A stretch of 41,531 nt of DNA, from contig JAQYVF010000039.1 in the NCBI GenBank assembly GCA_030145625.1, forward strand, positions 1 to 41,531, in the 5' to 3' direction. Positions 6,147 through 35,686 of the stretch are shown piece by piece (the stretch's first letter is position 1; each line of letters begins with the position of its first letter). The notes under the pieces were generated by a model. The model made no database searches and was not told the origin of the DNA. It saw nothing but the letters and a program-made list of their open reading frames with translations. The translations under genes and the position numbers were made by a program. Source of the stretch: Desulfocapsa sp. (GTDB taxonomy: Bacteria; Desulfobacterota; Desulfobulbia; Desulfobulbales; Desulfocapsaceae).

Positions 6147-6171
6147 AGGTGAGTGATACGGTTTTTAACTC

Positions 6172-6210: not shown

Positions 6211-6410
6211 TACAGTAAGGGTTGTATTCCCATAGCTAAGTAAGTCCAATGAGATATTCTCATCTCCTCCTGATTGCTTCAGAATGAAGAGGGGGAACGT
6301 AGAGTGCTCAGTGAACGAATCTCAATTGCCGGTAAATTCATATAGTTTGAAGTTTTGTAGAAGTGTATAGGCCCAGGTGAATTATTATGAATATTTAGGA
6401 AGGAGTATCT

Positions 6411-10171: not shown

Positions 10172-10447
10172 GGGGTTCTGGTTCCCGGGCTGCTCCTAAG
10201 CGGGTGTTTGTCTATAAATGGTTGTTTTTTCCTTACCTTTTATTGCCCTTAAGATTTAAACCTATAAATATCAACTGGATACCTGTGGTTAAATTTGCCG
10301 AGCGGCTCGATTTAGAAAAAACTATCTCGTTAATGGACAGACGCTTAAGAGGAGTATGTTTCATTTCATAAATATTTTGAAAAGTTTATAACAAATACTC
10401 AGTTATGATGAAAATAACTACACTTTTCTTTATATTTTTCGCGATTA
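10172..10447. other. 276-nt AT-rich spacer
   Basis: No gene found. It holds a short symmetrical element CGAGC-G-GCTCG at 10299-10309 and several A/T-rich blocks that could contain the promoter of the minus-strand decaheme gene. I could not assign -35/-10 boxes with confidence. Confidence 0.4.
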
Positions 10448-10990: not shown

Positions 10991-11062
10991 TGTTTTTCCT
11001 TATAGATAATTTGCTGTTACTACGATGGGAACACACTGGCAGACAGGCAGCAGTGTGGTAAA

Positions 11063-12259: not shown

Positions 12260-12434
12260 GTGGTGAATAATAGAAAGGTGAGATTGGTTCTCCTTATCCC
12301 GTATGTTATTTTATCGTGGAAAGGGAGAGTAGTCACCTATTATTTTTAAAAATACTACCAGCACGTCTTAAGACATCTCTTTTATATACTTTTTTAACTC
12401 CTGTGGGATAAGGGGCAGAAAGGGGGCAGTTCAG

Positions 12435-13880: not shown

Positions 13881-13926
13881 CTGGGCCTTTTAAGTGAGGT
13901 AGCTGTGAGTTATTATGGTCCTTGCT

Positions 13927-15234
13927 TTAAAAAGGTATTCGGTAAGTACCTATGCCAGAACCTTGAGTATCTGCTTTTGTAGGTGTACCGCTATGGGTAT
14001 GGCATTCCTGGCAGTCAATGGGAAAGCCAGCCCCCCTTGTATGGCAGCCAGTGCATGGGCCATCTTTGTAGTAGGGGGCGTCAGATACCTGGTGGTGTAC
14101 ATATTCCCAATAATTTGCATTACCGATACCTGCTTCGTCATCATCTATGTGACATTTCAGACAGATCAGGCCCCAATCTTTGGTCTCGAAAGTGTCGATG
14201 GTACCGGTGAGATCGGAGCCGTTGGCACGTCTTCTCATGAGCATTACACTCCCTGAGCCATGGGCTTCATGGCAATCGAGGCAGGAGAGAACAAAGTCAG
14301 TTCCGCCTGAGCTGGGGTCATAGGGCTCCTTGGTGGAGACAGTCCCATCCATTAGGCGAAGACCATGTTTGTCACCGGTATTGCCCCAGTCGATGGTCGA
14401 GAGGTTCCGATTGAGACTGGTGCTGAAGATAGTATCGGTGGTGGTGTGGCAGGTAACACAGAAGGCCACATAATCCGGAGTGCTGGCACGGCCAGCCGCA
14501 TCATCGACACTGGCATCCGGTTCTCGGGTCAGTAGACTGCTTGAACAAAAGGGTGGTTCATATTTGGTGTTGTAGCTGCTGTCCATGGTTTCGGTCGTTC
14601 CCCACAGGGCGAAGTGGTCCGTGGGTTTTGACATGACCGAAAAGGTGGGGTCTTTGGCATTGGCCCAGTTCCTCTTGGCCAGGTGAGGGTTATGGCAGGC
14701 ATCACAGGGATTGGAGTCGGCGGTGAACCAGGCAAAATTATCTTTGGCCAGGAGCCATATATCGTAGAGGTTGTGATAGGAGCGCTGGTTCATGGTGGTC
14801 ATGATTGTGGTTGCTCCCTGGGGAGCACAACCAAAACTCTGGCTGTAATCGTTATTCAATACAGCTTGCGCAGATGTGGGAGAATTGTGGCAGTAAAAGC
14901 AGAAGTTATCTGCTTCGATAAAGGGTCCTGTTTTCTGGGCGGTGTCGATGTTTCTGGCGAAAAGCTCATATGAGGACGGCCCACCGGTGCTCGGTGCTGG
15001 TTCACTGCCTTCTATACTGGCATGTTGTTCATGACAATGGGCGCAGTTTCCTCGTGAATAATTAAAACCTGATGGAGGGCTATTACCGATTATCGGGCGA
15101 AAAACTCCTATGCTGCTTGAGCCGTGAGCAGAATCAAGATATTCGCCGGCCAAAAGAGAGGATGCCGATAAAAGAAAAGCGAAACAAGTCAGGAAAATAA
15201 GGATAGATCTCTTGACCAATAGATCTTGGGACAT
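13927..15234 (-). CDS. Octaheme c-type cytochrome
   Basis: The start is placed at ATG 15234 (435 residues), which has AAGGAA eight bases upstream and leads straight into a signal peptide (LLVKRSILIFLTCFAFLL to SLLAG). The frame is open to ATG 15285, but that falls in a palindrome and has no ribosome-binding site. Eight CXXCH motifs are present: CAHCH, CFYCH, CDACH, CVTCH, CLDCH, CLKCH, CTGCH and CQECH, spaced by long linkers of 30-110 residues. The mature protein opens with GEYLDSAHGSS, and HG or HN residues recur as possible distal ligands. It lies between the YVTN lipoprotein gene and an OmcS-like gene. An extracellular or surface location is suggested by the loose heme spacing and Ser/Thr/Asn-rich linkers (inference). 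I do not recognise a named family. Confidence 0.92.
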   Translation of the reverse strand: MSQDLLVKRSILIFLTCFAFLLSASSLLAGEYLDSAHGSSSIGVFRPIIGNSPPSGFNYSRGNCAHCHEQHASIEGSEPAPSTGGPSSYELFARNIDTAQKTGPFIEADNFCFYCHNSPTSAQAVLNNDYSQSFGCAPQGATTIMTTMNQRSYHNLYDIWLLAKDNFAWFTADSNPCDACHNPHLAKRNWANAKDPTFSVMSKPTDHFALWGTTETMDSSYNTKYEPPFCSSSLLTREPDASVDDAAGRASTPDYVAFCVTCHTTTDTIFSTSLNRNLSTIDWGNTGDKHGLRLMDGTVSTKEPYDPSSGGTDFVLSCLDCHEAHGSGSVMLMRRRANGSDLTGTIDTFETKDWGLICLKCHIDDDEAGIGNANYWEYVHHQVSDAPYYKDGPCTGCHTRGAGFPIDCQECHTHSGTPTKADTQGSGIGTYRIPF

Positions 15235-15265
15235 GGGATGTTTCCTTTGTAGATTAAGATTAGAT

Positions 15266-15282
15266 AGACGTTTTAAACGTCT
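15266..15282. promoter_or_regulatory. 17-bp palindrome (8-1-8) upstream of octaheme gene
   Basis: AGACGTTT, one T, then AAACGTCT: a perfect palindrome 32 nt upstream of the chosen start of the octaheme gene. The size and symmetry fit a dimeric regulator site, but it also overlaps one arm of a longer stem (15279-15286), so an RNA role is equally possible. Confidence 0.45.
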
Positions 15283-15338
15283 CATTCCAGTTGCTTCTTT
15301 GGAGCGGCAAAAATGAGACTACAGTTCAGAGAAGCAAC
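15279..15338. repeat. Two interlocking inverted repeats between cytochrome genes
   Basis: GTCTCATT 15279-15286 pairs perfectly with AATGAGAC 15312-15319, and GTTGCTTCT 15290-15298 pairs perfectly with AGAAGCAAC 15330-15338. The second 5' arm lies in the loop of the first, so the pairs form a pseudoknot or are mutually exclusive. They fill the spacer between the OmcS-like and octaheme genes. Confidence 0.65.
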
Positions 15339-15346: not shown

Positions 15347-16405
15347 TTAATTTTTAGCGGTATGGCAGATAGCACATCCATTGTATCCATCAGCAGGCCA
15401 GCCCTTATAATTCCAGCGCAAGGCACCTGAATAAGGGCTGCCGTGGGCTCGATGGCAGGAGAGACACATTACCACCGCATCATTTGCCTGAGAGAAAACC
15501 TTTGTGTTCACGGTCGTGGAGGTATCGGCCGTGGCCAGAGGAGAAATGACACTGTATATATTATTCCCGTAAGTAGCACTGTTATTATACAGTTGGTATT
15601 CATCGGAAGAGACAGCGTTCGACATGTCATAGTCGGTTGGATGACGCAGCCATACACCTGTTCCGAAAGTTCCGCTGGAAGTCAGGCTGCCGGCTCCGTT
15701 ATGAAAATATTTATGGCATTGAGAGCATAGGGAGCTGATGGTGCCGATGGAGGTTTCGGATTCGGCAGTACGATCGATTCCGTAATATTTATTGTGTTGT
15801 AGATCGGTGGGACGATATTCGTAGTCTCGATCACCAAACCCTTGGATACCATTGAGCATTCGATAACTGGTCGCAAGAGTTGCTCCAAGCTGCCAGGTCG
15901 TATGGTCTTTGTAATGATGACTTCCTTTGACGGCGGAGATCTGTTCGGTAACAGTTCTGTCTCCATGACAGCCCATGGTTCCGGAACAGCGGAGCTGACC
16001 GCTAAATGTCCCATCTCCTCCGGGAGGGACGGTGAGGAGCTGATCAGGGCCGACAAGACCATAGATGTTATGCCCCCTCCGATCATCTATATTGGAGACC
16101 CAGTAAAAGTTTCCACCGGCGAGGGTGTTGGAGTCGGCTTCCGTGCCTGTCTCTTTGTATTGCGGCGAGGTGGTGTCGAAGACGTAGGGAACCTTATTGA
16201 TCCCGGTGTTCTGCCCGGTGTGGCAGCCAATGCAGTTGGCCACCAAAAGAGCAGGATTAGGGACCCCGCTGTCGGCCATCCAGAAGTTGTCCTGCGAGTT
16301 GTGCATGGTGTGGCAGGAAACACACGGCCCTGTAACGCTAGCCAGGGAGCAAAGAGGTAACAGTACTAAAAAGATAACTGTGAATAACCTGACAATGTTT
16401 ATCAT
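15347..16405 (-). CDS. OmcS-like hexaheme c-type cytochrome (copy 1)
   Basis: The start is placed at ATG 16405, giving 352 residues with a short signal peptide (INIVRLFTVIFLVLLPLCSLA). Upstream codons are open to 16489 but look non-coding. Five CXXCH motifs (CVSCH, CIGCH, CSQCH, CLSCH, CAICH) and one CX5CH (C-SGTMG-CH, 15965-15988) give six potential hemes. The order of landmarks, CxxCHTMHNSQ at the N-terminus, a second heme about 30 residues later, GHN, the third heme, a YR(M/I)L-G element, CxxCHxxFHN, LRHP, CLSCHRAH and a final CxxCH five residues from the end, matches what I recall of Geobacter OmcS, the nanowire-forming cytochrome. In OmcS the third motif is a normal CSSCH. It is about 80 residues shorter than OmcS. 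It is a paralog of the gene at 27673-28785. Filament formation is inference. Confidence 0.92.
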   Translation of the reverse strand: MINIVRLFTVIFLVLLPLCSLASVTGPCVSCHTMHNSQDNFWMADSGVPNPALLVANCIGCHTGQNTGINKVPYVFDTTSPQYKETGTEADSNTLAGGNFYWVSNIDDRRGHNIYGLVGPDQLLTVPPGGDGTFSGQLRCSGTMGCHGDRTVTEQISAVKGSHHYKDHTTWQLGATLATSYRMLNGIQGFGDRDYEYRPTDLQHNKYYGIDRTAESETSIGTISSLCSQCHKYFHNGAGSLTSSGTFGTGVWLRHPTDYDMSNAVSSDEYQLYNNSATYGNNIYSVISPLATADTSTTVNTKVFSQANDAVVMCLSCHRAHGSPYSGALRWNYKGWPADGYNGCAICHTAKN

Positions 16406-16794
16406 AATCGTCCCGTTCCATAGAGGATTCCATTGCGGTGGCTTCCCTCTTTTGCAGGGTAAGGGGACCCCGCTGTGACAGTCCTGCAACGGCAGGTTAA
16501 TTTGCCTGACAGGCTTGAGCCTTTAAATTGAATTTGCCGGCTGAAGCCATGAACTACCATATTTTTTGTAATGCTTTCGGCTTTCCGTTTTTTGTCCATC
16601 TGTACATGCTCAGGTGAACTCATTGTTGATCTCACCCGGCCAGGCCAAGATGATTTCAATTGCAGGAGTTACCTTTAGCCCTCAGTCTCTTATGGCCACC
16701 TTGTAAAATTTCCTTTTCGCCCAAACTCTTCCTCATGCTTCGATTTTGAACGAAAATTCTAATTTTTCAAGTTACCCATATGTTACCATTTCAT
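16406..16794 (-). other. 389-nt leader/intergenic region upstream of OmcS-like copy 1
   Basis: No plausible gene on either strand. Read in the direction of the downstream cytochrome gene, it contains several small stem-forming blocks (e.g. GGCTTCAGCC, CGGAAAGCCG, and AACCTGCCGTTGCAGG). A GGAAAGCC core recalls the conserved core of GEMM-type cyclic dinucleotide riboswitches, but I cannot fold the full aptamer around it. It probably carries the promoter and a long 5' leader. Confidence 0.4.
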
Positions 16795-17688
16795 TTATCG
16801 TTTGAAAATCTCCACTCTGGCATTTCCTTCATCCACCAGGCAGAGTCTTCCCCAGGGATCAAAGCGAATTTCACTTGGGTAATAGAGTTGTCCTCGGGCT
16901 ATACCCTTCTCCAGGAAACGGTATTTAAATACTCCGTTTCTATCGTACACGACTATATTGCGTCTTTGACGATCCAGCACGTACATAAACCCGGTTTGCT
17001 CTATGGCAAGCGATACCGGGAAGTTGACGGTCTTTCCCAACTCGAACGTCTTGATCAGCTTACCATTCAGGTTGAAACAGCGGATGGTTTTGTTGGCCTG
17101 ATCCAGTGCCCAGAGTTTCTGATTGTGAATTTTAAAATCAACAAATCCCCAAGGGCATTCCGAACAGGAAAAACGATTGAGAGCCTCAAGCTTATTTGAG
17201 TAACTGATAATGTTACCGGTTGCCTTGTTCAAAACGTACAGGATGTCTGAATCGGCTTCTATCCTGTCAGGGTAAACGAGTTCTCCTTTGTAGGTGAGGG
17301 TGTTTGGGGTGACCTTTTTTTCTTTGAGTGCGATATAACTGAGGCTGTTACGCCCTTTTTCAACTATCCACAAACCGTCTGCATCATTTTTTACGATGTC
17401 AAAGGGGATACTGAGCGCCTTGCCGGCATTGAAGATATTGAGCAGATCACCATTTCGGCTAAATGAGAGAAGGCGATTACGACCGCTGTCCACAATATAA
17501 TAGAGTTCTTTGTCCGCATCTATGTAGAGGGCGGTGGGCATCTTCATGGCATCTTGGACCATGTCCTGTTTGAGGACACGGTCCCAAAGCCAGGGAGAGC
17601 CGGCGTCAGCTCTTTCGCTTTGGTATCCCAGGACAAGGATAAGAACCAATACTGCTTTGAGAATCCGGAATGTGAGTTTGGTATTCAT
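16795..17688 (-). CDS. Secreted NHL-repeat beta-propeller protein
   Basis: A protein of 297 residues with a signal peptide (RILKAVLVLILVLGYQ, cleavage near RADAG). Propeller blades recur as MPTALYIDADKELYYIVDSGRN, FPVSLAIEQTGFMYVLDRQR and YPSEIRFDPWGRLCLVDEGN, about six in all. Two cysteines in FSCSECPW might form a disulphide but are not a heme site. It is the last gene of the conduit operon, 102 nt after the 16-heme gene. It is the third propeller found next to a multiheme cytochrome here, arguing for a specific partner role such as docking the cytochrome or closing the complex (inference). The ATG has only a distant GGAG. Confidence 0.9.
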   Translation of the reverse strand: MNTKLTFRILKAVLVLILVLGYQSERADAGSPWLWDRVLKQDMVQDAMKMPTALYIDADKELYYIVDSGRNRLLSFSRNGDLLNIFNAGKALSIPFDIVKNDADGLWIVEKGRNSLSYIALKEKKVTPNTLTYKGELVYPDRIEADSDILYVLNKATGNIISYSNKLEALNRFSCSECPWGFVDFKIHNQKLWALDQANKTIRCFNLNGKLIKTFELGKTVNFPVSLAIEQTGFMYVLDRQRRNIVVYDRNGVFKYRFLEKGIARGQLYYPSEIRFDPWGRLCLVDEGNARVEIFKR

Positions 17689-17790
17689 GTCTTTTGTTGG
17701 TTCTCCAATTATTCGCCTTTCCGGTGGTCAGACTTTTCAGTTCTCAAAAAGAGAGATGAAAGTCTGGCTGGCAATCCCACCCCAAAAATA

Positions 17791-18972
17791 TCAATAGGTC
17801 CGGTGACACAGTACGCACAGGGCGCGTTTTCCTTCCTGGAGCAGATGGTCTTTATGGTTGGTTCCCATTGGGTTGTGACAGGAAACACAGGTGACCATCT
17901 GGCCCGTGTGCGATTCCAGAACTTCCGGGCCAACAGGGTGGGTAAATTTCCCCTGAGTTTCGTGGCACTGAACACAGATCGCATTGCCGTCACCCTTGAG
18001 CATCGCCAGGTTTTTGCTGCCATGGGAATCATGGCAAGTGGAGCATTTTTTGACCGGTGGATGCGGGGTGGTCTTCTGTTTGTAACGGATAAGGGTCTCT
18101 GCATGGCAGGAGTTACAGACCTGGCGCTCTCTGTGTTTGAGTAGGGCCTTGTCATCTCCGGCATGTGGTGAGTGACAGTTGAGGCAGCTATTGCCATCCT
18201 GCAGAGTAATATGGCTGTGGTTGGCCTGAAGTTCTTGACCTGTTTTTTCGTGACATTTCAGACAAGTGGCCATGCTCACCTTGGCTGTTCCTTGATGACA
18301 GGATGCACATCCTTCAACATATGGTTGGTGGAGAAAATTCCGTATAAGTCCTTTGCGTTCACTGCCATGCGGGTTGTGACAGGAGAGACAGTCCTTGAGG
18401 GCAAGGGGGTAATCCGGGTGCGATGTCTGCAGCGTTTCTGCAGCGTGGCAGCCGAGGCAGAGGGCATCGGGTGTATCGGATAAGAGTTGCAGGTTGTCGG
18501 CTTGATGAGAATTGTGACAGGCCGTGCAGTTACCATCTGCAAATGGTTTGTGGGTTTTTTTATACTCTTTGGGCAGTTCTTTATGGCAGGCAAAACAATC
18601 CTTGGCCAGATCTTTGTTGATCAGGCCCTTGTCGCTGCTTGCATGAGGAGAGTGGCAGGCACTGCAGTTTCCCTCGGCAACCGGGGCGTGGATGATCCCC
18701 TTGGCAAATTCTTTTTTGCTTTTTTTGTGGCAGGAGTAACAGAGTTTGCCTTCATGCTCACGCAATAAGCCTTTGTACTTGGCAACATGAGGATTATGGC
18801 AGACACTGCATTTTGACTCAGCCACTGGTTGATGGACGATTTTGTCCGTGAACAGTGCCTTGTCATGACAACTGAAACAGACCTTGGCGGCCAATGCAGG
18901 ATTTGCAGTTACTAAAAGAGATGCTGCACAAAAACAAAGCAGAGTTGAAAACAGAGTAAACAGAGGCCGCAT
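17791..18972 (-). CDS. 16-heme c-type cytochrome, probably periplasmic part of the outer-membrane conduit
   Basis: A protein of 393 residues with a cleavable signal peptide (FSTLLCFCAASLLVTANPALA) and no lipobox, so a soluble periplasmic form is likely. Sixteen CXXCH motifs in about 365 residues give very dense packing of about 23 residues per heme. The pattern is doubled-CXXCH: CSVCHNPHVAKYKGLL, LCYSCHKK, HxPVxEGNCSACHSPHA. The ATG overlaps the stop of the 26-heme lipoprotein by one base (TAATG), which indicates translational coupling and near-equal synthesis. With the barrel and the 26-heme protein it would form the inner half of a trans-outer-membrane electron wire; that arrangement is inferred from operon content and from known porin-cytochrome complexes. 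Confidence 0.94.
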   Translation of the reverse strand: MRPLFTLFSTLLCFCAASLLVTANPALAAKVCFSCHDKALFTDKIVHQPVAESKCSVCHNPHVAKYKGLLREHEGKLCYSCHKKSKKEFAKGIIHAPVAEGNCSACHSPHASSDKGLINKDLAKDCFACHKELPKEYKKTHKPFADGNCTACHNSHQADNLQLLSDTPDALCLGCHAAETLQTSHPDYPLALKDCLSCHNPHGSERKGLIRNFLHQPYVEGCASCHQGTAKVSMATCLKCHEKTGQELQANHSHITLQDGNSCLNCHSPHAGDDKALLKHRERQVCNSCHAETLIRYKQKTTPHPPVKKCSTCHDSHGSKNLAMLKGDGNAICVQCHETQGKFTHPVGPEVLESHTGQMVTCVSCHNPMGTNHKDHLLQEGKRALCVLCHRTY

Positions 18973-20957
18973 TAGTTTGCCCTCCCATCGTGACAGGGGC
19001 TACAGTTCCCCTCCTTGAAAGGCGCATGACCAACTGGATAGAGTAACCCTTTCTCAGGACTGCCATGCGGGTCATGACAGCTGTTGCAGGAATCAGGCCC
19101 GGGTTTAATGTCTTTGTGAACTTTGATGAAATCAACACCCGTGACAACGTGACAGTCCGCGCAGAGCCGACTTCCTTTTTTGGTGAGCATCCCCTCTTCG
19201 TCGGAACCATGGGCCTGATGACACTGCAGACAGTTTTTGACTGCGGGTTTGTGGACTATTCCTCCACGCCAATACTCTGCAATTTCACTATGGCAACTGA
19301 GACACACTACCGGCTGCCCTTTTTTGAGGATGTGATCATGGGGGGAGCCATGGGCTGCGTGACAGGTGATGCAGTTTTCATCGACAGCAGGTTTATGGGG
19401 GAACTTGGAGTGCTGAATGGTCTTGTTTACGTCCTTGTGGCATTCAAGGCAGAGTTTTCCTGGTTTTTTCTTTACGACAAAGGCAAAGTCTGCAGAATGT
19501 GGGGAGTGACAACGATCACATTCACCTTTAGCTACGGGGACGTGTGTTTGGATGGTGTCACCGGCATCTTGGATGGATTGGTGGCAAGTTGCACAAAGGT
19601 CTCCATTTTTGGAGTTTGCCTTGAGATAGGTGTTCTCGCTGGCGCCATGGAGTTGGTGGCATCCGGTGCAGTTTGCAGTGGCAAAGGGTTGATGGAGGCT
19701 GAAGCGACCTCTTTCATCGGACTCTTTTTTATGACAAGAGAAGCAGAGCGTACTCTGGGGACTGGCTAAAAGATTGAGGTTCGGTGATTGATGGGGCAGG
19801 TGGCAAGTATCGCAGGCCTGCTTGGGCCCAGGTTGATGGCTGACACCGGTGTCACTGTAAGTTTTCTTTTCATGACACGTCAGGCAAAGACTCTTTTTGT
19901 CGAGTTTGAGCAGAGATTTGCGGGGCGCGTCATGGCCATTATGACATGCCAGGCATTGGCCTTTGACCACTGGCTGGTGCTGACTCATCATTTTCACCGG
20001 CTCCTGTTCCTCACTCTCTTCTTCTTTGCTAATCGGTCCCGTATCATGACAGTCGAGGCAGATCAGCTCCGCAGGTTTGGCCAGGAGCAGGCGTTCGTCG
20101 CTGGCATGTACGGAATGGCAGCTGACACACTGCTTGTTCAGGTAGGGTTTATGGATACTGTCTGGCCCTGTCATCGGTTTGTCATGGCAGTCGAGACAGA
20201 GTTGATTGGCTGGGGCCTTGGTAATTATTTTCTGCTCTTGTACCTGGTGGCAGGAATCACATTCTCCTTTTGCCACAGGTTTGTGCAGATTGTTTTTAAG
20301 GAGATTGGGGGCGTCGCTTGCATGCGGAGTGTGGCACTGCAGGCAGCCGCTCTCTACAGGATAGTTGTAATGGGACTTTTTAAAAGTTTCTCTATCAGTT
20401 GGGTGACAGGAGCGGCATCCAGCATCTGGTTCACTGGTTAAGAGTGAGACATTGTCGGATTTGTGAGGGTTATGACAGGTTTTGCAACCTTGTTCCAGAG
20501 GAAGGTGGACGTATTTCTTTTGGAAGTTACTCTCATCGTGGCAACTGAAGCAGGTCTTTTCTGAGGATTCTTTTAAGAGCTGGGGGTGTTTCGAATTGTG
20601 AGGGCTATGACAGCTGCTGCACTTTCCCTTGGCAACAGGAGGGTGCGTTGATTTCTGGTTCACGCCGGGGGCTATTGCCGGGTGGCAGGTGTAGCAGAGT
20701 GTCGGCTGTTCCTGACGGAGAAAGATGCCGCCGACAAGACCGTGAGGCAGATGGCACTTGTCGCAGCGGTCATTTTTTACCGGGGCATGGACATAGCCCT
20801 GTTTGAGCTTTGCAGTCAGCTCGGGATGGCAGTCGAGACATTTTTTGGCCACTGCTCTGGTAGAGCGAGTGGATTGAACACATGAGAACAGCAAGGCTGT
20901 AATAACAAGGATAAAAAAAGTTACTACCTTCTTGCTATTTAAAATATTCTTAATCAT
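18972..20957 (-). CDS. 26-heme c-type cytochrome lipoprotein
   Basis: The start is ATG 20957 (661 residues): ATGATTAA overlaps the upstream stop, and GGAG lies five bases before it. The frame is open to 20999, but that would bury the start in the upstream gene. The N-terminus is basic, then hydrophobic, ending LLFSC with a probable lipid Cys at residue 26, so the protein is likely an outer-membrane lipoprotein. I count 26 CXXCH motifs in about 610 residues, again doubled-CXXCH with CHxPH(G/A)S and HxPVxKGxC spacers; no other domain is visible. An acidic insert (EEESEEQEP) lies between hemes 12 and 13. It most likely spans the barrel or projects from it as the main electron wire. Twenty-six hemes is well above the 10-12 of MtrC- or OmcB-type proteins. 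Confidence 0.94.
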   Translation of the reverse strand: MIKNILNSKKVVTFFILVITALLFSCVQSTRSTRAVAKKCLDCHPELTAKLKQGYVHAPVKNDRCDKCHLPHGLVGGIFLRQEQPTLCYTCHPAIAPGVNQKSTHPPVAKGKCSSCHSPHNSKHPQLLKESSEKTCFSCHDESNFQKKYVHLPLEQGCKTCHNPHKSDNVSLLTSEPDAGCRSCHPTDRETFKKSHYNYPVESGCLQCHTPHASDAPNLLKNNLHKPVAKGECDSCHQVQEQKIITKAPANQLCLDCHDKPMTGPDSIHKPYLNKQCVSCHSVHASDERLLLAKPAELICLDCHDTGPISKEEESEEQEPVKMMSQHQPVVKGQCLACHNGHDAPRKSLLKLDKKSLCLTCHEKKTYSDTGVSHQPGPKQACDTCHLPHQSPNLNLLASPQSTLCFSCHKKESDERGRFSLHQPFATANCTGCHQLHGASENTYLKANSKNGDLCATCHQSIQDAGDTIQTHVPVAKGECDRCHSPHSADFAFVVKKKPGKLCLECHKDVNKTIQHSKFPHKPAVDENCITCHAAHGSPHDHILKKGQPVVCLSCHSEIAEYWRGGIVHKPAVKNCLQCHQAHGSDEEGMLTKKGSRLCADCHVVTGVDFIKVHKDIKPGPDSCNSCHDPHGSPEKGLLYPVGHAPFKEGNCSPCHDGRAN

Positions 20958-22572
20958 CTTGCTCCATCTCTTTTTTGAGATTCTGCCAGGCAGTGTCATT
21001 GATTTTTACTGCGTACTCCATTCGCAGTTTAGCTATATAGTCTTGGCGGAGTGCGGCCATTTTCGCAGTGTACAGTGATTGTTCAATCTCTTTTTTCACT
21101 TCGGACAGGGGCATGGTCTGTTCAGGGGTGCGATCTATCAGTTGCACAAGGCTTATATGCTTATCCACCGTAAAGGCCTTGCTCACTTCATTCTTGGTTA
21201 ACTTGTTAACCACGTCTTTCACCTGTGGGTGGAGGTGATTGGCCGGGATATCTCGGATGGGAACATCACCACCGGTACGTTTCCGGGCAAGGGTCATGAA
21301 GTCTTCGCCCAGGGCAACCTCCAGCCACAGATCATTGAGAGCCTTTTCACTGCCCTCAATGATTGCCATTCGAATAACCTCGGGCTGAGTATAGAGGAAA
21401 AGGTTTTGCTGATAATAGGCCTTAATCTCTTCCTCGGTTACCTTAGCCTGAGGGGCAAAAATTCGTTCTTCCAGTATCCTGGTCATACGATGCTGGCAGT
21501 AGAATTTGTATATGGCCTCAAGGGGTGGTTCCTGCTCATAGTTTCTGGCCAGTCCCTCCCAGGAAGTTAAGGTCTGATCTATGATACCATTGACAACCTG
21601 ATTTTTGAATTGAAAATTGTTTTCTACCTTGAAACCGTTTTGTCTTCTGAAGCGTTGAAGCTGGTGAATTTTGGCGAGAACGACCTTTTCTGAGATTTCG
21701 CCCCTGTCTGTGAAAATCAAGGGGGCATCGGTTCCGGTGTAATCAGGTGTTGTGATGTCCAGCTGTTCCAGACGTTCATCGTCTATCTTTACATGGTATT
21801 GCTGGCGAAGTGTAGTGAGCAGGGCAACAGTCAGCCTGTTTTCTTCTTCTTTCCACACTGCTTCCTGTACCTGCTTTTTCACTATCTCAAAATCATCCCT
21901 GTTTCCTTCAACGATATCTTGCAGTCTCAGGACAACAAAGTCGGCTTTGTAGGGAACCGGCGGGCTTGTTTTTCCCTTTTCAAGTTTATGGAGAATGGGG
22001 AGCCATCCGGGGTTTACGGCCAGGGGGCGATACAACTCGTTACGTTGGGAAAAATAGCCGTCTTCTCTCCCATGGCTGGTGGCGAATGCTTCATTGCTCA
22101 AAGATTCCTGTTCCAGTTTGTCTACGAATGCCTGAGCAATTTCCTGTTTGTTGAAAAAGAAGATGTTGAGTTGATATTGAGGCGCATAACTCTTCAGATA
22201 CTTTTTCCAAAGCTTATCGTCGCTGAGTTGAATTTTATTGTCTATTTCTTCGGCCTTCAGATACATCAAGGTCCTGGCCTTGAGAAAGGTGAGTGCTTTT
22301 TGACGGTACGCTGGAGACTCGTAGAGTTTCATCCGTTCCGCCTCTTTAAAGAGAAGGAGCCAGTCGACAAAAAGGGATGGGTTTTCCGGAAACAGCATGT
22401 CTTTTTCCTGCCAGTTTTCCCACCAGGACTTAAAATCGTCGGTGCTGAAGTCTTCATCCCCTATGGAGACAAGGGTCTGACTGCTCCAGGGAAACCATCC
22501 TGCGTGAAGAGGGAGGGCGGCAGATAATAAGAGGGCAAAGCTGATAAAGATGATTTTGCTTATTCGGGACAT
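20950..22572 (-). CDS. SurA/parvulin-like periplasmic peptidyl-prolyl isomerase, duplicated architecture
   Basis: A protein of 540 residues with a signal peptide (KIIFISFALLLSAALPLHA). It has helical SurA-N-like segments (residues about 40-120) and parvulin-type core elements at about 395-500 (EVIRMAIIEGSEKALNDLW, LARKRTGGDVPIRDI, VSKAFTVDKHISLVQLIDR). A degenerate first unit (about 130-270) has the same end element: LRQQYHVKI-DDERLEQL near 255 and LRMEYAVKI-NDTAWQNL near 520. Parvulin-family chaperones fold and escort periplasmic and outer-membrane proteins. Its position inside the conduit operon, overlapping the next lipoprotein gene by 13 nt and the 26-heme gene by 8 nt, suggests a dedicated assembly factor for the barrel or the very long cytochromes (inference). 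Confidence 0.88.
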   Translation of the reverse strand: MSRISKIIFISFALLLSAALPLHAGWFPWSSQTLVSIGDEDFSTDDFKSWWENWQEKDMLFPENPSLFVDWLLLFKEAERMKLYESPAYRQKALTFLKARTLMYLKAEEIDNKIQLSDDKLWKKYLKSYAPQYQLNIFFFNKQEIAQAFVDKLEQESLSNEAFATSHGREDGYFSQRNELYRPLAVNPGWLPILHKLEKGKTSPPVPYKADFVVLRLQDIVEGNRDDFEIVKKQVQEAVWKEEENRLTVALLTTLRQQYHVKIDDERLEQLDITTPDYTGTDAPLIFTDRGEISEKVVLAKIHQLQRFRRQNGFKVENNFQFKNQVVNGIIDQTLTSWEGLARNYEQEPPLEAIYKFYCQHRMTRILEERIFAPQAKVTEEEIKAYYQQNLFLYTQPEVIRMAIIEGSEKALNDLWLEVALGEDFMTLARKRTGGDVPIRDIPANHLHPQVKDVVNKLTKNEVSKAFTVDKHISLVQLIDRTPEQTMPLSEVKKEIEQSLYTAKMAALRQDYIAKLRMEYAVKINDTAWQNLKKEMEQDD

Positions 22573-23153
22573 GGTATCATTCCTTGTTCGAGCCAGTCGG
22601 CTATAATTTCCTGAGACATGCGACGCGCCAGGGCGGTGATGGAGTTTATTCTCCCCAGGTGCATGATCTGCTGGTACTCACTGCCGAGGCGACGATGGTA
22701 GGTGGACCACAGTAGTTGTCCGGATTTACCATCGTAGAGGTCGAGAACGAAGGTTATTTCAGTATCGACATAGTCGGCGTGTTTTTTCTCGTACATCTTG
22801 AGTATGGTGCCGCCGAGAAAGAGGTCGGGGGTAAGCCGGCCGCCAATCATTTCCAGTTGTTCACGGTTGGGTTGTTGCAGGGGATAAATAAGAAGCTGTT
22901 GGTATATTTCCAGAATGTCTCCTTCCGGGAATACTTGAAAGCGGCCTGTGGCCACCAGTTCGGAAAGGAGTATTTTGTTGACAATGGCTCCGCCCTGAGG
23001 AAAGGAAATTTTGTTAATGAGTGGGAGGACTGCGATTTTACAGCTGCCCTGGGCAGGTAACGGTGCCAGTTTCTGGATGATTGGCACCTCTTTTGCGCAG
23101 CCGGCCAAGAGGAAAAGGAAAAAAATGAGAGATAAACGGGTCCAGTATTTCAC
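22560..23153 (-). CDS. CsgG/LpoB-like lipoprotein (third of a trio)
   Basis: A protein of 197 residues; lipobox LLAGC with the lipid Cys at residue 19. The mature part begins with the strand-helix pattern of TolB-N/CsgG/LpoB-type alpha-beta domains: KIAVLPLINKISFPQGG, then helices and ILLSELVATGRFQVF, followed by LTPDLFLGGTILKMYEKK and VLDLYDGKSGQLLWST. These folds occur in curli export (CsgG), penicillin-binding-protein activation (LpoB) and other envelope machines. The ATG is three bases after the preceding stop. The residue after the lipid Cys is Ala, not Asp, so outer-membrane sorting is likely. Its role in cytochrome conduit assembly is inferred from the operon only. Confidence 0.85.
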   Translation of the reverse strand: MKYWTRLSLIFFLFLLAGCAKEVPIIQKLAPLPAQGSCKIAVLPLINKISFPQGGAIVNKILLSELVATGRFQVFPEGDILEIYQQLLIYPLQQPNREQLEMIGGRLTPDLFLGGTILKMYEKKHADYVDTEITFVLDLYDGKSGQLLWSTYHRRLGSEYQQIMHLGRINSITALARRMSQEIIADWLEQGMIPCPE

Positions 23154-23156
23154 TAT

Positions 23157-24698
23157 TTAGAACTCCTCTACCCATTCGGTTTCGATGCTGAACTCTTCTC
23201 CGTCAGCTCCACTCTCTGACAGTTGAAACAGGTTTGCAATATTTTGTTGGCTCTGGTTGCCGAGGATGTCTCTGGCTGTCAGCAGGCACTGGATCTTGTA
23301 TTCTGGATCAGGACTGCTGTCAAGTTCAATGGTCACCGGGAGCTCAGTACCCTGCACCAATTTGAGCAACTCTCCGTCTTCTCCAAAAAATTTGGCCCAC
23401 CAAAAGTAGATGGGGGTGTCGATGGTGTTGTCCAGATCGACCAGCACTCGATCCAGATCTTGATTTACATCCACGACGATCAGTGGCGGTTCAGGCCTGA
23501 ACTGAACCTTTGCCTCGGCAGAGGACTCACGTTGGGCTCGATCCCATACTGTGAAGGTGATCCAGTAGTTACCGGCAGGTGCAATACCGCCCAGTGAGGT
23601 CTTTCCCTGCCAGGTAATGCGCCTTGGCATAAGACCGGAAGCTCCCATGAGGACTATGGCCTCTTCCTCTTCATCAATAACGGTGATTTCCCACCGGGAA
23701 ATTGGCTCAGGTTCCAGAAGCTTAGGGATAATAATAAGTTTGTCGCTGAATAATATTTCCCCGTCAAGTTCCGTGCCGATCAGGTGGAGTTTGACGGTTG
23801 GTTTTTCAACATCGATACTGTAGGAGCCGACTATCCCTTCTTGAGAGATACCTGACGGCCAAGTGGCCTTTAAGGTTATGAGAAAGGTGCCGGCATCCTC
23901 TACTGCTGGCCAGGAGGTTTGCAGATAATATCCTTCCTCATCGGGAATGAGGGGGTGCTCCTGTCCGTTTGCCTGAACGATGAGTTGGGGTTGGGGAGCT
24001 TCTTCATCCAGCAAATTGTGCATCTTTATTTTACATGATACATTTTCACCAGGTCTGAGATATTGGGGGGAGATGATAACTGTGTCGATATCTAAGTTAC
24101 TCAGTGGTTCCCCTCCCAGATCAACATGTTCCGGCATGGTGGCAAAAAGACTGGTGAAGAAAGGCTCGTAGAGATCTTCAAGTTTGTGTGGATCTTCTAT
24201 GCCCAGGAAACTGATCATGTCCGAGTAGTAGAGATGCTCTGTCTGTGCCCAGACAATCCGTTCGTCCGAAGTCCTGCTGAGCTGAAGATTAAGGCTTAAC
24301 AGGGGGGTGTCACTCTCTTCAATTTGGCAGACCGTGGACTGGAGCACCAGGTCTGCTCCTAGTTCTTTGCGTATCAGTGAGGTTTGGTAACTGGTGAGTT
24401 TGCCAAGGGATCTGATGCGGTTACGAACCAGAAAATGCATGACCTCTTCAGCCGGAATAAGAATTTTACCTCGTTTGAGGAGTTCCTGGCGTACCTTTTC
24501 GGTGAGCTGGCTGTTGATCCCATTGGGGTCAATACTCAGATCGAGTAGGGGGAAAAAGGCTATGGACTGGGCAGATGCTATCCCGGCGCAGGAGAATATT
24601 GCTATGAGCAGGCTAAGGCATAGTACGCGCAACAGAACAGATTTTTGGTCTTTTGCACGTACCTTGCGGGTGGAGAGTTGTCCTGCCATTGTACTCAC
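23157..24698 (-). CDS. Envelope protein with CsgG-like N-domain and Ig-like C-domains
   Basis: A protein of 513 residues. The start is GTG 24698, overlapping the upstream stop (GTGA); ATG 24689 is an alternative. A signal peptide (LLRVLCLSLLIAIFSCAGIASA) is followed at about 44-190 by the same alpha-beta pattern as its two neighbours: SIAFFPLLDLS, LTEKVRQELLKRGKILIPAEE, LIRKELGADLVLQSTVCQI and DERIVWAQTEHL. Residues about 205-490 are beta-rich Ig/FN3-like modules (IISPQYLRPGENVSCKIKM, GIAPAGNYWITFTVWDRA), ending in an acidic tail. It carries no hemes. A large beta-sandwich extension on a CsgG-like base could reach peptidoglycan or partners in the periplasm or at the surface (inference). Confidence 0.85.
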   Translation of the reverse strand: MSTMAGQLSTRKVRAKDQKSVLLRVLCLSLLIAIFSCAGIASAQSIAFFPLLDLSIDPNGINSQLTEKVRQELLKRGKILIPAEEVMHFLVRNRIRSLGKLTSYQTSLIRKELGADLVLQSTVCQIEESDTPLLSLNLQLSRTSDERIVWAQTEHLYYSDMISFLGIEDPHKLEDLYEPFFTSLFATMPEHVDLGGEPLSNLDIDTVIISPQYLRPGENVSCKIKMHNLLDEEAPQPQLIVQANGQEHPLIPDEEGYYLQTSWPAVEDAGTFLITLKATWPSGISQEGIVGSYSIDVEKPTVKLHLIGTELDGEILFSDKLIIIPKLLEPEPISRWEITVIDEEEEAIVLMGASGLMPRRITWQGKTSLGGIAPAGNYWITFTVWDRAQRESSAEAKVQFRPEPPLIVVDVNQDLDRVLVDLDNTIDTPIYFWWAKFFGEDGELLKLVQGTELPVTIELDSSPDPEYKIQCLLTARDILGNQSQQNIANLFQLSESGADGEEFSIETEWVEEF

Positions 24699-25273
24699 TT
24701 AGGAATAGTTGAAAGCATATTGTTCAGCAACTCAACAGTGATTTGAAAGGCATCCATGGGATCTAATCCAAACAGCCGGTCGGACAGGGAATATCCACTC
24801 AGGGTGTCGCTGGTTCGCCAGAGTATCAGAGCAGATTCCCCATCCAGAAGCTGCAGAGTTAACGACATCTCCGGATAGCTGAAAGAACCCTGACGACTTT
24901 GTCCGATATTGTTGACCGTACCAACAACGATACTCTGGACATTGAGTCTCTGGGTTAACCTTTTAATCAGTGGAGCATCCAGAGGGGTGCTCGGGTCTAT
25001 ACCCATCTCGTTAAGGGCGCTGTCGACAACTCCCTTGTCTGCAACATCAAAGATGCCCATGGCCATGATCTGCGTGGCTGTCACATCGCGGATGCGCTTG
25101 GAGGCGTATTCATCCTGGGTGTTGTTTTCAAAAGGGAGGATAGCAACCCTGGTGACGTAGCTCAGATCTATACCTTCCCGGAGATAGGTCTGGGTGGATG
25201 AGCTTTTGGATGAACATCCGTAGCTTGTAAGCAGGGATAAGGTCAGGAGGATTATGCATGTGATCGTTTTCAT
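24695..25273 (-). CDS. CsgG/LpoB-like lipoprotein (first of a trio)
   Basis: A protein of 192 residues with a lipoprotein-like signal (IILLTLSLLTSYGC, lipid Cys at residue 20; the lipobox is weak because Ser replaces the usual Leu at -3). The mature domain reads VTRVAILPFENNTQDEYASKRI, then TATQIMAMGIFDVADKGVVD, LTQRLNVQSIVVGTVNNI and LTLQLLDGESALILWRT, the typical CsgG/LpoB/TolB-N alternation. It starts three nucleotides after the barrel gene, so it is almost certainly co-expressed with it. An outer-membrane accessory or secretion role is inferred. Three such domains in consecutive genes suggest they form a hetero-oligomer. Confidence 0.86.
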   Translation of the reverse strand: MKTITCIILLTLSLLTSYGCSSKSSSTQTYLREGIDLSYVTRVAILPFENNTQDEYASKRIRDVTATQIMAMGIFDVADKGVVDSALNEMGIDPSTPLDAPLIKRLTQRLNVQSIVVGTVNNIGQSRQGSFSYPEMSLTLQLLDGESALILWRTSDTLSGYSLSDRLFGLDPMDAFQITVELLNNMLSTIPK

Positions 25274-25276
25274 AGG

Positions 25277-27373
25277 CTAAAACCTTGCTGTGAGGCGGGC
25301 ATTGACGAACCAGCCGTTGTCTTCTTGGGTTATGAGGTAATTGGCTATGGACTGCATGGTTAAAAATTCGCTTATGTTCCAACTCCAGTTGGCATTAAAG
25401 TTATTCACGGTCTCTTCTTCCGTGCTGCTGATCTTGTGACCGACAGTAACCTGTGTCTTGGAATTGCGAATCAAGGACACGTTGGTGTCTAAGCGAAAGC
25501 TTTGATAATTGGACCAATCCTCCCCATAGCCCTGGGATGCGTTGGCCAGTATCGAGAGCAGTTCAGAGGGGCGCCAGTTCACATTGATCGTGGCTCGGCC
25601 TCCAGACTCCTCGGTATCAACAATTTCTGTGAACCCGACCCCGGTACTTCCATGTTCTGCGATAAGATCGACCAGAAGGGTAGGACGCAGGCGCGCGGTG
25701 AGGGTCCAGCGTAATGCGAGATTTTCACTCGTACTATTCTCAAGTTCATTCTTGTTGAAGATGGTGTTAATATCCAGAGTTGTGTCCAGATTCGGGTAGA
25801 GAGCAGCGATTAAATTAAGATGGATGTTGTTGTTCGACGTCTCCAGGACATCATCAGTGGAATTCTCGTTTCTGGTTATGCCAATATTTGTTTCAAGGGT
25901 TGGCAGGAATGTTGATTGAACGGTCAAGGCATAAGAGCGTTGGCTGGTGTCGGAAATCTCGCTGTTGGTCGTGATTGTGTCGTTGATGGTAAATGAGGGG
26001 ATGAAGTACTGATTGTACCACCATCTGGCATTTGCTGTTTGAAAAAGACGCCTGCGGTCGTTGCCGCCGGTCGTGTAGTCAGAATCATCCCATACCATGG
26101 AATAGCTGAGGCTGGTGTCTGTGCTTGGTGTGTAGCGGAGATTCAGGTCGGTCAAGGTCCTGGTGTATTCCTGGGTTTCGGCGAGACTTGTACCGGAACT
26201 GGTCTGGTGGCGATAAGCCTCAATTTCGGTTACCGGAATGGCAAGAGTCAAAGGCCAGTTAGTAACTACCAGTTTCAGGTAGATTCGTTGTATGCCGCCG
26301 GTGTTTACCTGGAAACGGAATCTGTCCTGGTCATAGGTCGTGCCTGCATTGATCACTTCTCTCTGCCAGTTCACACCGTCATCACTTGAATAGAGATCCC
26401 AGCGCAGTGAACTGGTCTCGGCGATGAGCAATGGGTCAATCTGACTGGTGTAAACGTAGAGGAAATCAACGGCTTGGAAGTCTGCCTTGATTCCGAGGTT
26501 GGCTATCTCGTGGAGGTTGATGGTAAAGGCTGTATTGTTCCTGTTACCGTCTATGAGAGCGGGTGATGAAGGGAGTCTTCCAGTAAGGGGAGTGGGATCC
26601 ACCCCGGCCAATCCCTGGCTGAGCCCTACTCTCACGGCGATGTTGTCACCTTCAGCGGTGATGTCGGTGCTGGTGTTGGTTATTTGTCCTGAAAAAGTCA
26701 GGTTCATCCGGTTGGTAAAAAAAGAACGATTGTAATCGACGCGGCCGAAGTGTTTTTTCTCGTCGTAGCTGCTCTGTTCAACGAAGTCATCCCGTAGTTG
26801 GGTGTAATAACTGTAATATGCCTCAAAGTGATCTACCTCCCACTGGGCAATAAATTCTGACCATTTTCGGCTGGTGTCGGTCACAGGGACCTCTTCGTCG
26901 TCACTTAACCAGTTTTGGCCTATGTTGATGCTCACGTTTGGCCAGAAACGATAATCCCAGTTGGAGGCGAGAATGGCTTCCCAGTTGGAGTCGGTCTGGT
27001 TGTAGCTTTGGGAGTTGTTGGTCTTGTTCATGAACCCACTGATTTCGGCGAGAAAGATGTCGTTTTCAACCTGAAGGCTGCCGGTGGGTGAAAGGGTTTC
27101 CCGGACAATATTGCCGGTTGTCTCGTTCCGGGAATAATTGACGTTGGTGTCAAGAAAAATAGCTCGTGTTACTCTGGGATTCCATTGCAGACCATAGCGC
27201 TGATTGAAGGCATTGATGTCCTCCTCTTCACCTGCATGGTTTGCGCTGGCTTGCCAGGAGGCATCAAGGGCAATTTCCTCACCATGGACATGGCTGGCAA
27301 TAAGTAGGGAAAGGCAACAAAAGGAGAGCCAAGAGCGAAGAATAAGCTTTATATGAAACCCTTGACTGTTCAC
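25277..27373 (-). CDS. Outer-membrane beta-barrel, likely porin sheath of the cytochrome conduit, with discoidin-like insert
   Basis: A protein of 698 residues from a GTG start; signal peptide LILRSWLSFCCLSLLIASHVHG. The mature protein has no cysteine, alternates polar/hydrophobic and aromatic residues in strand after strand (SINIGQNWL, NLTFSGQITNTS, LNLRYTPSTDTSLSYSMVW, ATINVNWRPSELLSILANAS), and ends with NARLTARF, a C-terminal Phe that is the classic BAM recognition signal. At residues about 290-390 a different module interrupts the barrel pattern: FLYVYTSQID, WDLYSSDDGVNWQREV and RIYLKLVVTNW...VTEIEAY, as in F5/8 type C (discoidin) domains. The size suits a barrel of more than 20 strands. 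Leading an operon with 26- and 16-heme cytochromes, it would be the insulating sheath (inference by analogy with MtrB and OetI). Confidence 0.88.
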   Translation of the reverse strand: MNSQGFHIKLILRSWLSFCCLSLLIASHVHGEEIALDASWQASANHAGEEEDINAFNQRYGLQWNPRVTRAIFLDTNVNYSRNETTGNIVRETLSPTGSLQVENDIFLAEISGFMNKTNNSQSYNQTDSNWEAILASNWDYRFWPNVSINIGQNWLSDDEEVPVTDTSRKWSEFIAQWEVDHFEAYYSYYTQLRDDFVEQSSYDEKKHFGRVDYNRSFFTNRMNLTFSGQITNTSTDITAEGDNIAVRVGLSQGLAGVDPTPLTGRLPSSPALIDGNRNNTAFTINLHEIANLGIKADFQAVDFLYVYTSQIDPLLIAETSSLRWDLYSSDDGVNWQREVINAGTTYDQDRFRFQVNTGGIQRIYLKLVVTNWPLTLAIPVTEIEAYRHQTSSGTSLAETQEYTRTLTDLNLRYTPSTDTSLSYSMVWDDSDYTTGGNDRRRLFQTANARWWYNQYFIPSFTINDTITTNSEISDTSQRSYALTVQSTFLPTLETNIGITRNENSTDDVLETSNNNIHLNLIAALYPNLDTTLDINTIFNKNELENSTSENLALRWTLTARLRPTLLVDLIAEHGSTGVGFTEIVDTEESGGRATINVNWRPSELLSILANASQGYGEDWSNYQSFRLDTNVSLIRNSKTQVTVGHKISSTEEETVNNFNANWSWNISEFLTMQSIANYLITQEDNGWFVNARLTARF

Positions 27374-27672: not shown

Positions 27673-28785
27673 TTAATTTTTGGTGGTATGACACTCAAAA
27701 CATGCACCAGAGCCGCCGGTTCCGGCAGAAACTGCCGAATAATCCCAGCGCAGCAGGTCGGAATAGCTTGACCCATGAGCCCGATGGCAGGAGATACAGG
27801 TAACAATTGCATCATCACCTGTGAAGGTGATAGCATTTTTGACAGCACTGACATCGTCACTGGCCACGGGGGCGGAAACCACGTAAGGGTTGCCGGCTCC
27901 GCCATAACTACGGTATTCAGAAGTTCCGCCGGTGTTGGCCATGTCAAAGTCTGTTGGGTGACGAACCCAGGGACTGGCAAAGGCTCCTGTGGTCGGGTTG
28001 GTTCCTCCTACTTCGCCGGCACCGTTGTGGAAGTCATTGTGGCAGCGGGCACAGAGAGAGGAAATGGTGTCGGTTTGATCTGTGGTGTCGGTGGTTCTGT
28101 CAACACCCTTGTACTGATTATGAGCGGTAACTGTGGGCTGATATTCCCAGTCGGGATCTTCCAGGCCTATTACGCCAAGGAGAAAACGGAAACTTGTGGC
28201 TGTGGTGCTACCGTCAATGGTACTGTCATCGGCATGGTGTGTCCCGGAGATGGCAGCGAAATCGCTGGTTTCAGCGCTGTCACCATGGCAGCCATTGGCG
28301 CCGGCACATCTGAGCTGGGCTGTAAGGCCGACAAGGGCTCCCGGAGGCATATTGAGCAATACTGCATCCTGAGGCGCCATGCCGTCAGTGGCTACGTTAT
28401 GTCCGGTTTGATCAGTAAGTGATCCGTCGGCGCCTGCTGTGCGACTGGCAACCCAGTAGAAAGAGCCGCCGGCCAAGGTGTCACCTGTGGTGCCGTCAAC
28501 GCCGTAAGTTGGGGCGCTGGTGTCGGAGACATAAGGGATAACGTTGGTACCGTCGTTGGATCCGGTATGGCAGGCGACGCATCCTCTAAGGAGCAGGACA
28601 TCATTCGGTGCTGTCTGAGCGGCGCCGGCAGCGTCGAAAGCCATGGGGGCTCCGTCCTGACTGTTATGCATGGTGTGACATATGGCACACTGGCCTGCAA
28701 CTTTTGCGGCTGCAGGGGCAGCAAGCAGAAGCACTCCCATGCTCGCCAAGGCCCCATAGTGATACCATTTCTTGTTTAATTTCAT
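27673..28785 (-). CDS. OmcS-like hexaheme c-type cytochrome (copy 2)
   Basis: A protein of 370 residues; signal peptide GALASMGVLLLAAPAAA, with a strong GGGAGGG ribosome-binding site. Five CXXCH motifs (CAICH, CVACH, CARCH, CISCH, CFECH) plus C-AGANG-CH (28285-28308), the same CX5CH position as in copy 1, give six potential hemes. Shared landmarks with copy 1 include CHTMHNSQD, LAGG(S/N)FYWV, GHN, MPPG, an aromatic EYQPT/EYRPT element, ISSLCxxCHxxFHNGAG, W(V/L)RHPTD(F/Y)DM, CxSCHRAHGSxYS and a terminal CHT(T/A)KN. These landmarks recall OmcS-family extracellular cytochromes. It is monocistronic: its own promoter candidate lies upstream and a strong terminator downstream. A high-output secreted, possibly filamentous, cytochrome is inferred. 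Confidence 0.93.
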   Translation of the reverse strand: MKLNKKWYHYGALASMGVLLLAAPAAAKVAGQCAICHTMHNSQDGAPMAFDAAGAAQTAPNDVLLLRGCVACHTGSNDGTNVIPYVSDTSAPTYGVDGTTGDTLAGGSFYWVASRTAGADGSLTDQTGHNVATDGMAPQDAVLLNMPPGALVGLTAQLRCAGANGCHGDSAETSDFAAISGTHHADDSTIDGSTTATSFRFLLGVIGLEDPDWEYQPTVTAHNQYKGVDRTTDTTDQTDTISSLCARCHNDFHNGAGEVGGTNPTTGAFASPWVRHPTDFDMANTGGTSEYRSYGGAGNPYVVSAPVASDDVSAVKNAITFTGDDAIVTCISCHRAHGSSYSDLLRWDYSAVSAGTGGSGACFECHTTKN

Positions 28786-34446: not shown

Positions 34447-34456
34447 ATACTCCACT

Positions 34457-35668: not shown

Positions 35669-35686
35669 GAGAGGAATGGTTTTCTC

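Follow-up and report, generated by a model that had tools for sequence, protein, structure and literature searches.

The question raised by a tightly packed operon of Desulfocapsa sp. is whether it encodes a new kind of trans-outer-membrane electron conduit or a member of a family that has already been described. The operon lies in contig JAQYVF010000039.1 of assembly GCA_030145625.1 (Desulfocapsaceae, Desulfobacterota), and the 41,531 nucleotides analysed (positions 1 to 41,531, forward strand) are referred to here as the window. Its genes encode an outer-membrane barrel, three related envelope proteins, a peptidyl-prolyl isomerase (PPIase), two multiheme cytochromes and a propeller protein. 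A preliminary description of the window presented this combination as an unusual porin-cytochrome conduit, distinct from the known Oet systems. We find that the operon is a member of the OetI-type conduit and not a new version, since every tested point of the Oet description holds for it. It most likely works as an OetI-type trans-outer-membrane electron conduit.

The core of such operons was published in 2017 and the name OetABI followed in 2023, so the claim of a distinct version does not hold. In the parts of these papers that were available, a conserved operon of 26-heme and 16-heme cytochromes, a peptidyl-prolyl isomerase and a six-bladed propeller is described, together with further proteins of unknown function, from SEEP-SRB1, Desulfuromonadales, Thermodesulfobacterales, Anaeromyxobacter and Desulfurivibrio (Skennerton 2017, PMC5539420). 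The barrel was later added to this set, which was named OetABI, with OmcS/OmcX-like cytochromes alongside (Murali 2023, PMC10553843). A similar operon, on a contig broken downstream, encodes 26 and 12 hemes (PMC12246660), whereas the smaller cytochrome here has 16. The literature also mentions a "26 heme GSU2495" (PMC12977616), and we infer that the GSU2494-GSU2495 region is the G. sulfurreducens form of OetABI. GSU2497, which lies close by, is annotated as a lipoprotein. What remains of the earlier proposal is the conduit itself: a barrel is present together with two cytochromes, one a lipoprotein and the other secreted, and both cytochromes are related to MtrA.

The eight-gene operon and its conservation

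The operon comprises the following genes, listed from the barrel gene onward.

25277..27373, minus strand: OetI-type outer-membrane β-barrel, 698 amino acids, C-terminal Phe (open reading frame (ORF), AlphaFold2 model, Foldseek)
24695..25273, minus strand: PelC/LpoB-like lipoprotein 1, 192 amino acids, lipobox Cys20 (profile comparison, alignment)
23157..24698, minus strand: PelC/LpoB-like N-domain followed by about three immunoglobulin (Ig)-like domains, 513 amino acids (hhalign, secondary structure, fold search)
22560..23153, minus strand: PelC/LpoB-like lipoprotein 3, 197 amino acids, lipobox Cys19 (profile; best solved relative PelC 9h80_C, E 2.2e-8)
20950..22572, minus strand: SurA/PpiC-type PPIase, 540 amino acids (Pfam Rotamase_2/PPIC rotamase, E 1.2e-28)
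18972..20999, minus strand: 26-heme MtrA-like cytochrome lipoprotein, OetB type (26 CXXCH, lipobox LLFSC)
17791..18972, minus strand: 16-heme MtrA-like cytochrome, OetA type, with a cleavable-type signal peptide (16 CXXCH)
16795..17688, minus strand: NHL/six-bladed β-propeller protein, 297 amino acids (Pfam NHL, E 3.2e-6; blade number per the published type)

An ORF check reproduced the coordinates, strand, order and tight spacing of all eight genes as they had been reported. With the longest ORFs, the spacing from barrel to NHL gene is 3, -4, 3, -13, -50, -1 and 102 nt. The 50-nt overlap arises when the 26-heme gene is read as its longest ORF. An in-frame downstream ATG at 20957 (MIKNILNSKK...) shortens the overlap with the PPIase gene to 8 nt, which agrees with the overlaps of 1-13 nt first given; 20957 is the likelier start, rather than 20999. 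The translations contain 26 and 16 CXXCH motifs, which bears out the total of 42 hemes, and they carry the C-terminal Phe of the barrel, the LLFSC lipobox of the 26-heme protein and the cleavable-type signal of the 16-heme protein.

To what extent is this gene set kept elsewhere? The barrel was searched against 297 genomes drawn from the phylum (E <= 0.001), and on its own it matched 31 other genomes. From these, 33 loci were fetched; the 25 with at least 8 kb downstream were counted and the 8 shorter ones were left out. One of the 25, L044, has a weak barrel match (E 9.7e-4) and is the sole locus without the operon. The PPIase gene is found in 24 of the 25 loci, the 16-heme gene in 21 and the propeller gene in 20. 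The preliminary description had looked to cytochrome-free orthologous operons as evidence against a conduit, but 24/25 loci retain the 26-heme gene. Heme numbers are strictly kept: there are exactly 26 CXXCH motifs in 24/24 cases, where the label admitted 24-37, and exactly 16 in 21/21, where it admitted 14-17. All four genes lie downstream on the same strand in 20/25 loci, which argues that the grouping is not due to chance. Three other loci (L057, L063 and L064) stop shortly past the 26-heme gene, and in L038 no propeller gene was seen downstream. At least one LpoB-family gene is present in 24 loci and exactly three in 20. The makeup once called unusual is thus the usual one, and the lipoprotein trio was dropped as a distinguishing feature.

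A second set of loci came from named genomes scanned with the 26-heme alignment, and is restricted to the best 80 of 314 confirmed places. A barrel scoring above 100 bits occurs in 34 of these 80, of which 31 have 8 kb downstream, and the 26-heme, 16-heme, PPIase and propeller genes are all present in 28 of the 31 (a biased set, counted apart). Three loci (L069, L079 and L127) repeat others and are still counted in the barrel and operon, OmcS-like and gap figures of this set. Titles of the loci that hold both barrel and operon include Geobacter, Geomonas, Anaeromyxobacter, Acidobacteria, Nitrospirae and Krumholzibacteriia. In Geobacter sp. AOG1 (282 bits) and in two Geomonas species (233 and 258 bits), the barrel profile finds an orthologue ahead of this gene set. 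Median spacing of the seven main gene pairs, again with the longest ORFs, lies between -10 and 18 nt. Alignments were built from subsets of the orthologues: 18 of 26 for the PPIase, 25 of 32 for the barrel, 20 of 27 for the 513-amino-acid protein, 18 of 24 and then 6 for the 26-heme protein, 17 of 20 for the 16-heme protein, 29 of 35 for lipoprotein 1 and 25 of 35 for lipoprotein 3.

Two diverged copies of the operon occur within a single genome in two instances (L050 with L051, and L034 with L055); two copies have been reported in Desulfurivibrio (Skennerton 2017, PMC5539420). Locus L080, titled Heimdallarchaeota, carries PPIase, 26-heme, 15-heme, NHL and OmcS-like genes. It is placed among the Desulfobacterota in a tree of the 26-heme part and is, on that placement, probably a misbinned contig.

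PelC-like lipoproteins, barrel insert and heme fusions

The three proteins encoded between the barrel and the PPIase are paralogues by profile comparison (hhalign: lipoprotein 1 against 3, E 1.8e-32; lipoprotein 1 against the 513-amino-acid protein, E 1.4e-21; the latter against lipoprotein 3, E 3.3e-25). Their Pfam matches to LpoB have E-values of 0.0011, 0.0012 and 0.00071, and none of the three matches CsgG in Pfam at E 0.1. At E <= 0.001, LpoB is matched by 25 of 29 orthologues of lipoprotein 1 and CsgG by 15 of them; the copy in the window is one of the 29 and reaches neither family at that threshold; for lipoprotein 3 each family is matched by 1/25. The lipobox cysteines are invariant (Cys20 in 29/29 aligned for lipoprotein 1, Cys19 in 25/25 for lipoprotein 3). 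Against solved structures, the lipoprotein 1 profile finds 5t11_A (E 4.9e-9), 5t10, 9h80_C (PelC, E 7.3e-7) and 5t0z, and reaches an LpoB structure only at E 0.66. We take 5t11, 5t10 and 5t0z to be PelC; the structure file calls them uncharacterised or putative lipoprotein. For lipoprotein 3 the best match, PelC 9h80_C, is followed by GNA1162 (E 8.1e-5). These profile matches indicate that the original label "CsgG-like" is better read as PelC-like. Three related LpoB-family genes are indeed present, as had been described; CsgG is matched by some of the orthologues and by none of the window's own three at E 0.1, and the nearest solved relative is PelC. The position aligned to the membrane-embedded Trp-149 of PelC is Tyr (SGYS; numbering by hand).

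The profile of the 513-amino-acid protein matches PelC chains weakly (E 0.0006 to 0.05), and the best 50 rows of a Foldseek search with this protein contain no PelC or LpoB, being mostly Ig/fibronectin type III-like, complement and macroglobulin chains. The kinship of its N-domain to PelC/LpoB is drawn from hhalign, the weak PelC matches and the secondary structure. Within its own genome, a CsgG search points to two places, both outside the operon (contigs C122 and C135), and an LpoB search to four, two of which are the first and third lipoprotein genes; the lipoprotein 1 profile has two matches, both within the operon.

The barrel was modelled with AlphaFold2 from 25 sequences, giving a confident β-barrel (pLDDT 88, pTM 0.66) and not the non-porin fold that would have spoken against a conduit. 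By hand count of the DSSP assignment it has about 28 strands: 11 precede an insert that covers roughly residues 244-391, and 17 follow it. Because an odd number of strands precedes it, the insert is probably on the outer side of the membrane in this model, if the N-terminus is periplasmic. Its likeness to F5/8 type C domains is faint at the sequence level: PF00754 is matched by 4/25 aligned orthologues at E <= 0.05 (best 1.7e-4; in L042 at residues 252-321, E 0.024), and the window's own insert has no match at that threshold. The barrel has no Pfam match, hence no tetratricopeptide repeat (TPR) domain was found. In Foldseek, MtrB (6r2q_B) stands at rank 22 by E-value and has the top TM-score (0.41/0.43) among the best 50 of 867 matches; fold matches among large barrels are weak evidence. 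A search of the genome for MtrB was silent in its controls and is uninformative.

Both operon cytochromes are MtrA relatives by profile. Their best solved relative is 6r2q_A (E 2.9e-30 for the 26-heme and 7.7e-31 for the 16-heme protein), which we take as the MtrA protein of the Mtr complex, under another molecule name in the structure file. The DmsE/MtrA-type family TIGR03508 (cut-off 192) is passed by the 26-heme protein with 285 bits and failed by the 16-heme protein with 164, and neither cytochrome reaches the MtrC/OmcA family TIGR03507 (31 and 39 bits; cut-off 209).

The two cytochromes are fused into a single 42-heme ORF in some relatives. Among 114 loci examined, 78 are countable in having an ORF of exactly 26 or 42 CXXCH motifs; the genes are unfused in 67 of them and fused in the following 11, which belong to Desulfobulbaceae/Desulfurivibrionaceae and other phyla.

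42-heme fusion loci: L076, L078 (9986-13048, plus strand), L092, L099, L101, L102, L106, L107, L109, L115, L130

These are counts of unfiltered ORFs; overlap-filtered ORFs give 8 fusions plus L112 (40 motifs, at a contig end). In the fusions, motifs 26 and 27 are separated by 11-23 residues, and no signal peptide was seen at the junctions, by hydropathy for those long enough and by eye for L092, L099 and L101. An artefactual joining of two genes was rejected on this ground, since a signal peptide should then remain between the two parts. A quick tree computed from the 26-heme part (75 rows; three identical ones were left out) requires 5 changes to explain the fused form. At least 2 changes between fused and unfused forms are forced by well-supported branches, and the deepest forks are weak. 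So the fusion arose or was undone more than once, a recurrence suggesting that the 26-heme protein has its C terminus next to the N terminus of the 16-heme protein.

How the conduit may be built

In the arrangement that we propose, OetI would form a wide barrel of about 28 strands, and a wire of MtrA-like heme repeats would thread it and link periplasmic carriers to the outside, where OmcS-like cytochromes would take over. The 26-heme lipoprotein and the 16-heme protein may join end to end as one such wire, which we regard as having about an even chance. The three PelC-like lipoproteins would surround the periplasmic rim of the barrel as a collar, holding or guiding the wire. In the Pel exporter, twelve PelC lipoproteins are arranged as a ring below the PelB barrel, on its periplasmic side, with a PelB:PelC ratio of 1:12 (PMC12141448); by analogy a similar collar may sit under OetI, with a chance somewhat below even. 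The PPIase is probably a folding or escort chaperone of the barrel or the wire. As for dimensions, there are about 27 hemes per 200-Angstrom periplasm and 86 hemes span 630 Angstrom, or about 7.4 Angstrom per heme (PMC7096707), and 42 hemes would by this rule measure about 310 Angstrom (31 nm). It is conceivable, though rather unlikely, that a continuous 42-heme wire of this length runs from near the inner membrane through collar and barrel, and that the envelope is crossed without soluble shuttles. Periplasm-bridging cytochromes with 21-24 hemes have already been raised for iron oxidisers (PMC7096707). Electron flow and its direction, the cytochrome that occupies the barrel, the formation of a ring and the topology are what we infer.

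Several observations weigh against this arrangement or against the conduit as a whole. The window's own LpoB matches all lie below the Pfam cut-off, and the four Geobacter and Geomonas loci L086, L089, L093 and L097 have two LpoB-family genes instead of three. NCBIfam gives no match for the barrel at E 0.1, and 21 Foldseek rows, mostly TonB-dependent receptors, outrank MtrB by E-value. A lipobox is recognised by a crude pattern in 43/67 26-heme ORFs, leaving 24 that lack it, and an OmcS-like gene occurs in only 25 of the best 80 of 314 named loci. The placement of a cytochrome in the barrel and of a ring beneath it is read from homology and analogy. In the available parts of the literature, the core proteins are assigned to the periplasm and homologues are not expressed during metal respiration in several cultured species (PMC5539420), and GSU2495 is called periplasmic (PMC10599522). 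For an omcB mutant, Murali 2023 (PMC10553843) cites expression on Fe(III) oxide.

Other explanations of the same genes differ in how much of this arrangement they change. The Oet model as published (PMC10553843) would place the 16-heme protein in the periplasm or barrel and the 26-heme lipoprotein on the surface, and the LpoB-like proteins could then be generic envelope lipoproteins, for instance with peptidoglycan contacts. It concerns the wire and the collar and leaves the conduit itself untouched. The window agrees with it in having separate genes with different signal peptides, as do the 67 unfused loci in lacking the fusion, and LpoB is the Pfam family most often matched by lipoprotein 1; the repeated fusions, which suggest a shared end, and a lipoprotein 1 profile that hits PelC while leaving LpoB at an insignificant E-value, tell against it. 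We rate it as nearly an even bet. The barrel, the PelC/CsgG-like ring and the chaperone might instead secrete the OmcS-like subunits, with the 26- and 16-heme proteins as a separate electron path. CsgG belongs to an export system. So does PelC (PMC12141448), and 17/25 barrel-found loci include an OmcS-like gene in the stretch that was fetched. Yet 8/25 have no OmcS-like gene in that stretch while 24/25 have the 26-heme gene, with a median spacing of -8 nt between it and the preceding PPIase gene, and such an export machine seems improbable. A mere chance neighbourhood of envelope genes without any conduit can be given almost no weight, for content, order and short gaps are kept within the Desulfobacterota as well as at loci whose titles name Acidobacteria, Nitrospirae and Anaeromyxobacter.

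Oet-type conduits have been proposed to carry electrons between methane-oxidising archaea and sulfate reducers, and in the available text roles have so far been given only to OetA, OetB and OetI (Murali 2023, PMC10553843). The words CsgG, LpoB, "26 heme" and fusion are absent from the main text of that paper. Among open-licence papers, we found none that joins CsgG with multiheme and extracellular electron transfer, and nothing related to 42-heme proteins among those listed best. The literature examined, as far as its available text goes, thus gives no description of the PelC-like lipoproteins, the barrel insert or the fused 42-heme form. These features bear on how electrons cross the periplasm and raise an annotation to a structural model open to testing in Geobacter, and the PelC-like helpers and the natural 26+16-heme fusions suggest how the conduit may be built.

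Flanking cytochrome genes and comparison with known systems

An OmcS-like gene lies directly ahead of the barrel gene and a second one after the propeller gene, followed by further cytochrome and propeller genes.

27673..28785, minus strand: OmcS-like filament-type cytochrome, 5 CXXCH and one CX5CH (PDB 6ef8 OmcS, E 2.7e-9)
15347..16489, minus strand: second OmcS-like cytochrome, 5 CXXCH and CX5CH (shared profile, motif)
7717..15285, minus strand: trailing set of 8-heme, propeller, 5-heme, small protein, 10-heme and NHL genes (ORFs)

The second OmcS-like gene likely starts inside its listed ORF. Its product alone finds no OmcS structure at E <= 1, and its kinship to OmcS is drawn from the shared profile and motif. 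The CX5CH motif (CAGxxGCHG type) spans residues 160-167 of the first protein and 168-175 of the second listed ORF. It recurs widely: 69 OmcS-like ORFs were collected from the loci (repeats included), and it is present in 47 of the 49 with five CXXCH, in 6 of the 12 with six and in 0 of the 5 with seven. In nearly all of the 47 with five CXXCH that carry it, the motif aligns with the third CXXCH of OmcS and its six-motif kin. The CX5CH is a candidate non-canonical heme c motif, or may mark a lost heme; no paper pairing it with heme was found among open-licence papers.

A trailing set similar to that of the window follows the operon in L096. Window positions 677-10171 hold multiheme cytochromes (18, 14 and 10 CXXCH) and NHL proteins, partly on the opposite strand, and form a larger cytochrome island. 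Positions 33001-38800 encode a resistance-nodulation-division (RND) efflux system (OEP, HlyD and AcrB family) unrelated to the conduit. The genome carries dsrA, consistent with a sulfur-cycling anaerobe.

How does the operon compare with known systems? Geobacter Omb-Oma-Omc and Ext combine a barrel with a periplasmic and a surface cytochrome. Their cytochromes have 8 and 12 hemes, and they are likened to the operon by description (PMC7096707). MtrCAB of Shewanella shares with it MtrA-like heme rods and a large barrel with some MtrB-like fold similarity. MtrCAB carries 10+10 hemes, whereas 26+16 are found here; the OetI-type barrel matches no MtrB family, the operon cytochromes stay under the MtrC/OmcA cut-off, and the lipoproteins, PPIase and propeller are extras. 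The PelBC exopolysaccharide exporter likewise has PelC-like lipoproteins encoded beside an outer-membrane barrel. PelB has TPRs and 16 strands (PMC12141448), in contrast to the roughly 28 strands and absent Pfam match of the barrel here, and the operon has three paralogues, one of them with Ig-like domains, whose partners are cytochromes. The OetI-type systems share with it the adjacent 26- and 16-heme cytochrome genes, the PPIase, the propeller, the barrel and the nearby OmcS-like cytochromes. We found no difference in kind from them, and we assign the operon to them by gene set and description and by the barrel orthologues in Geobacteraceae.

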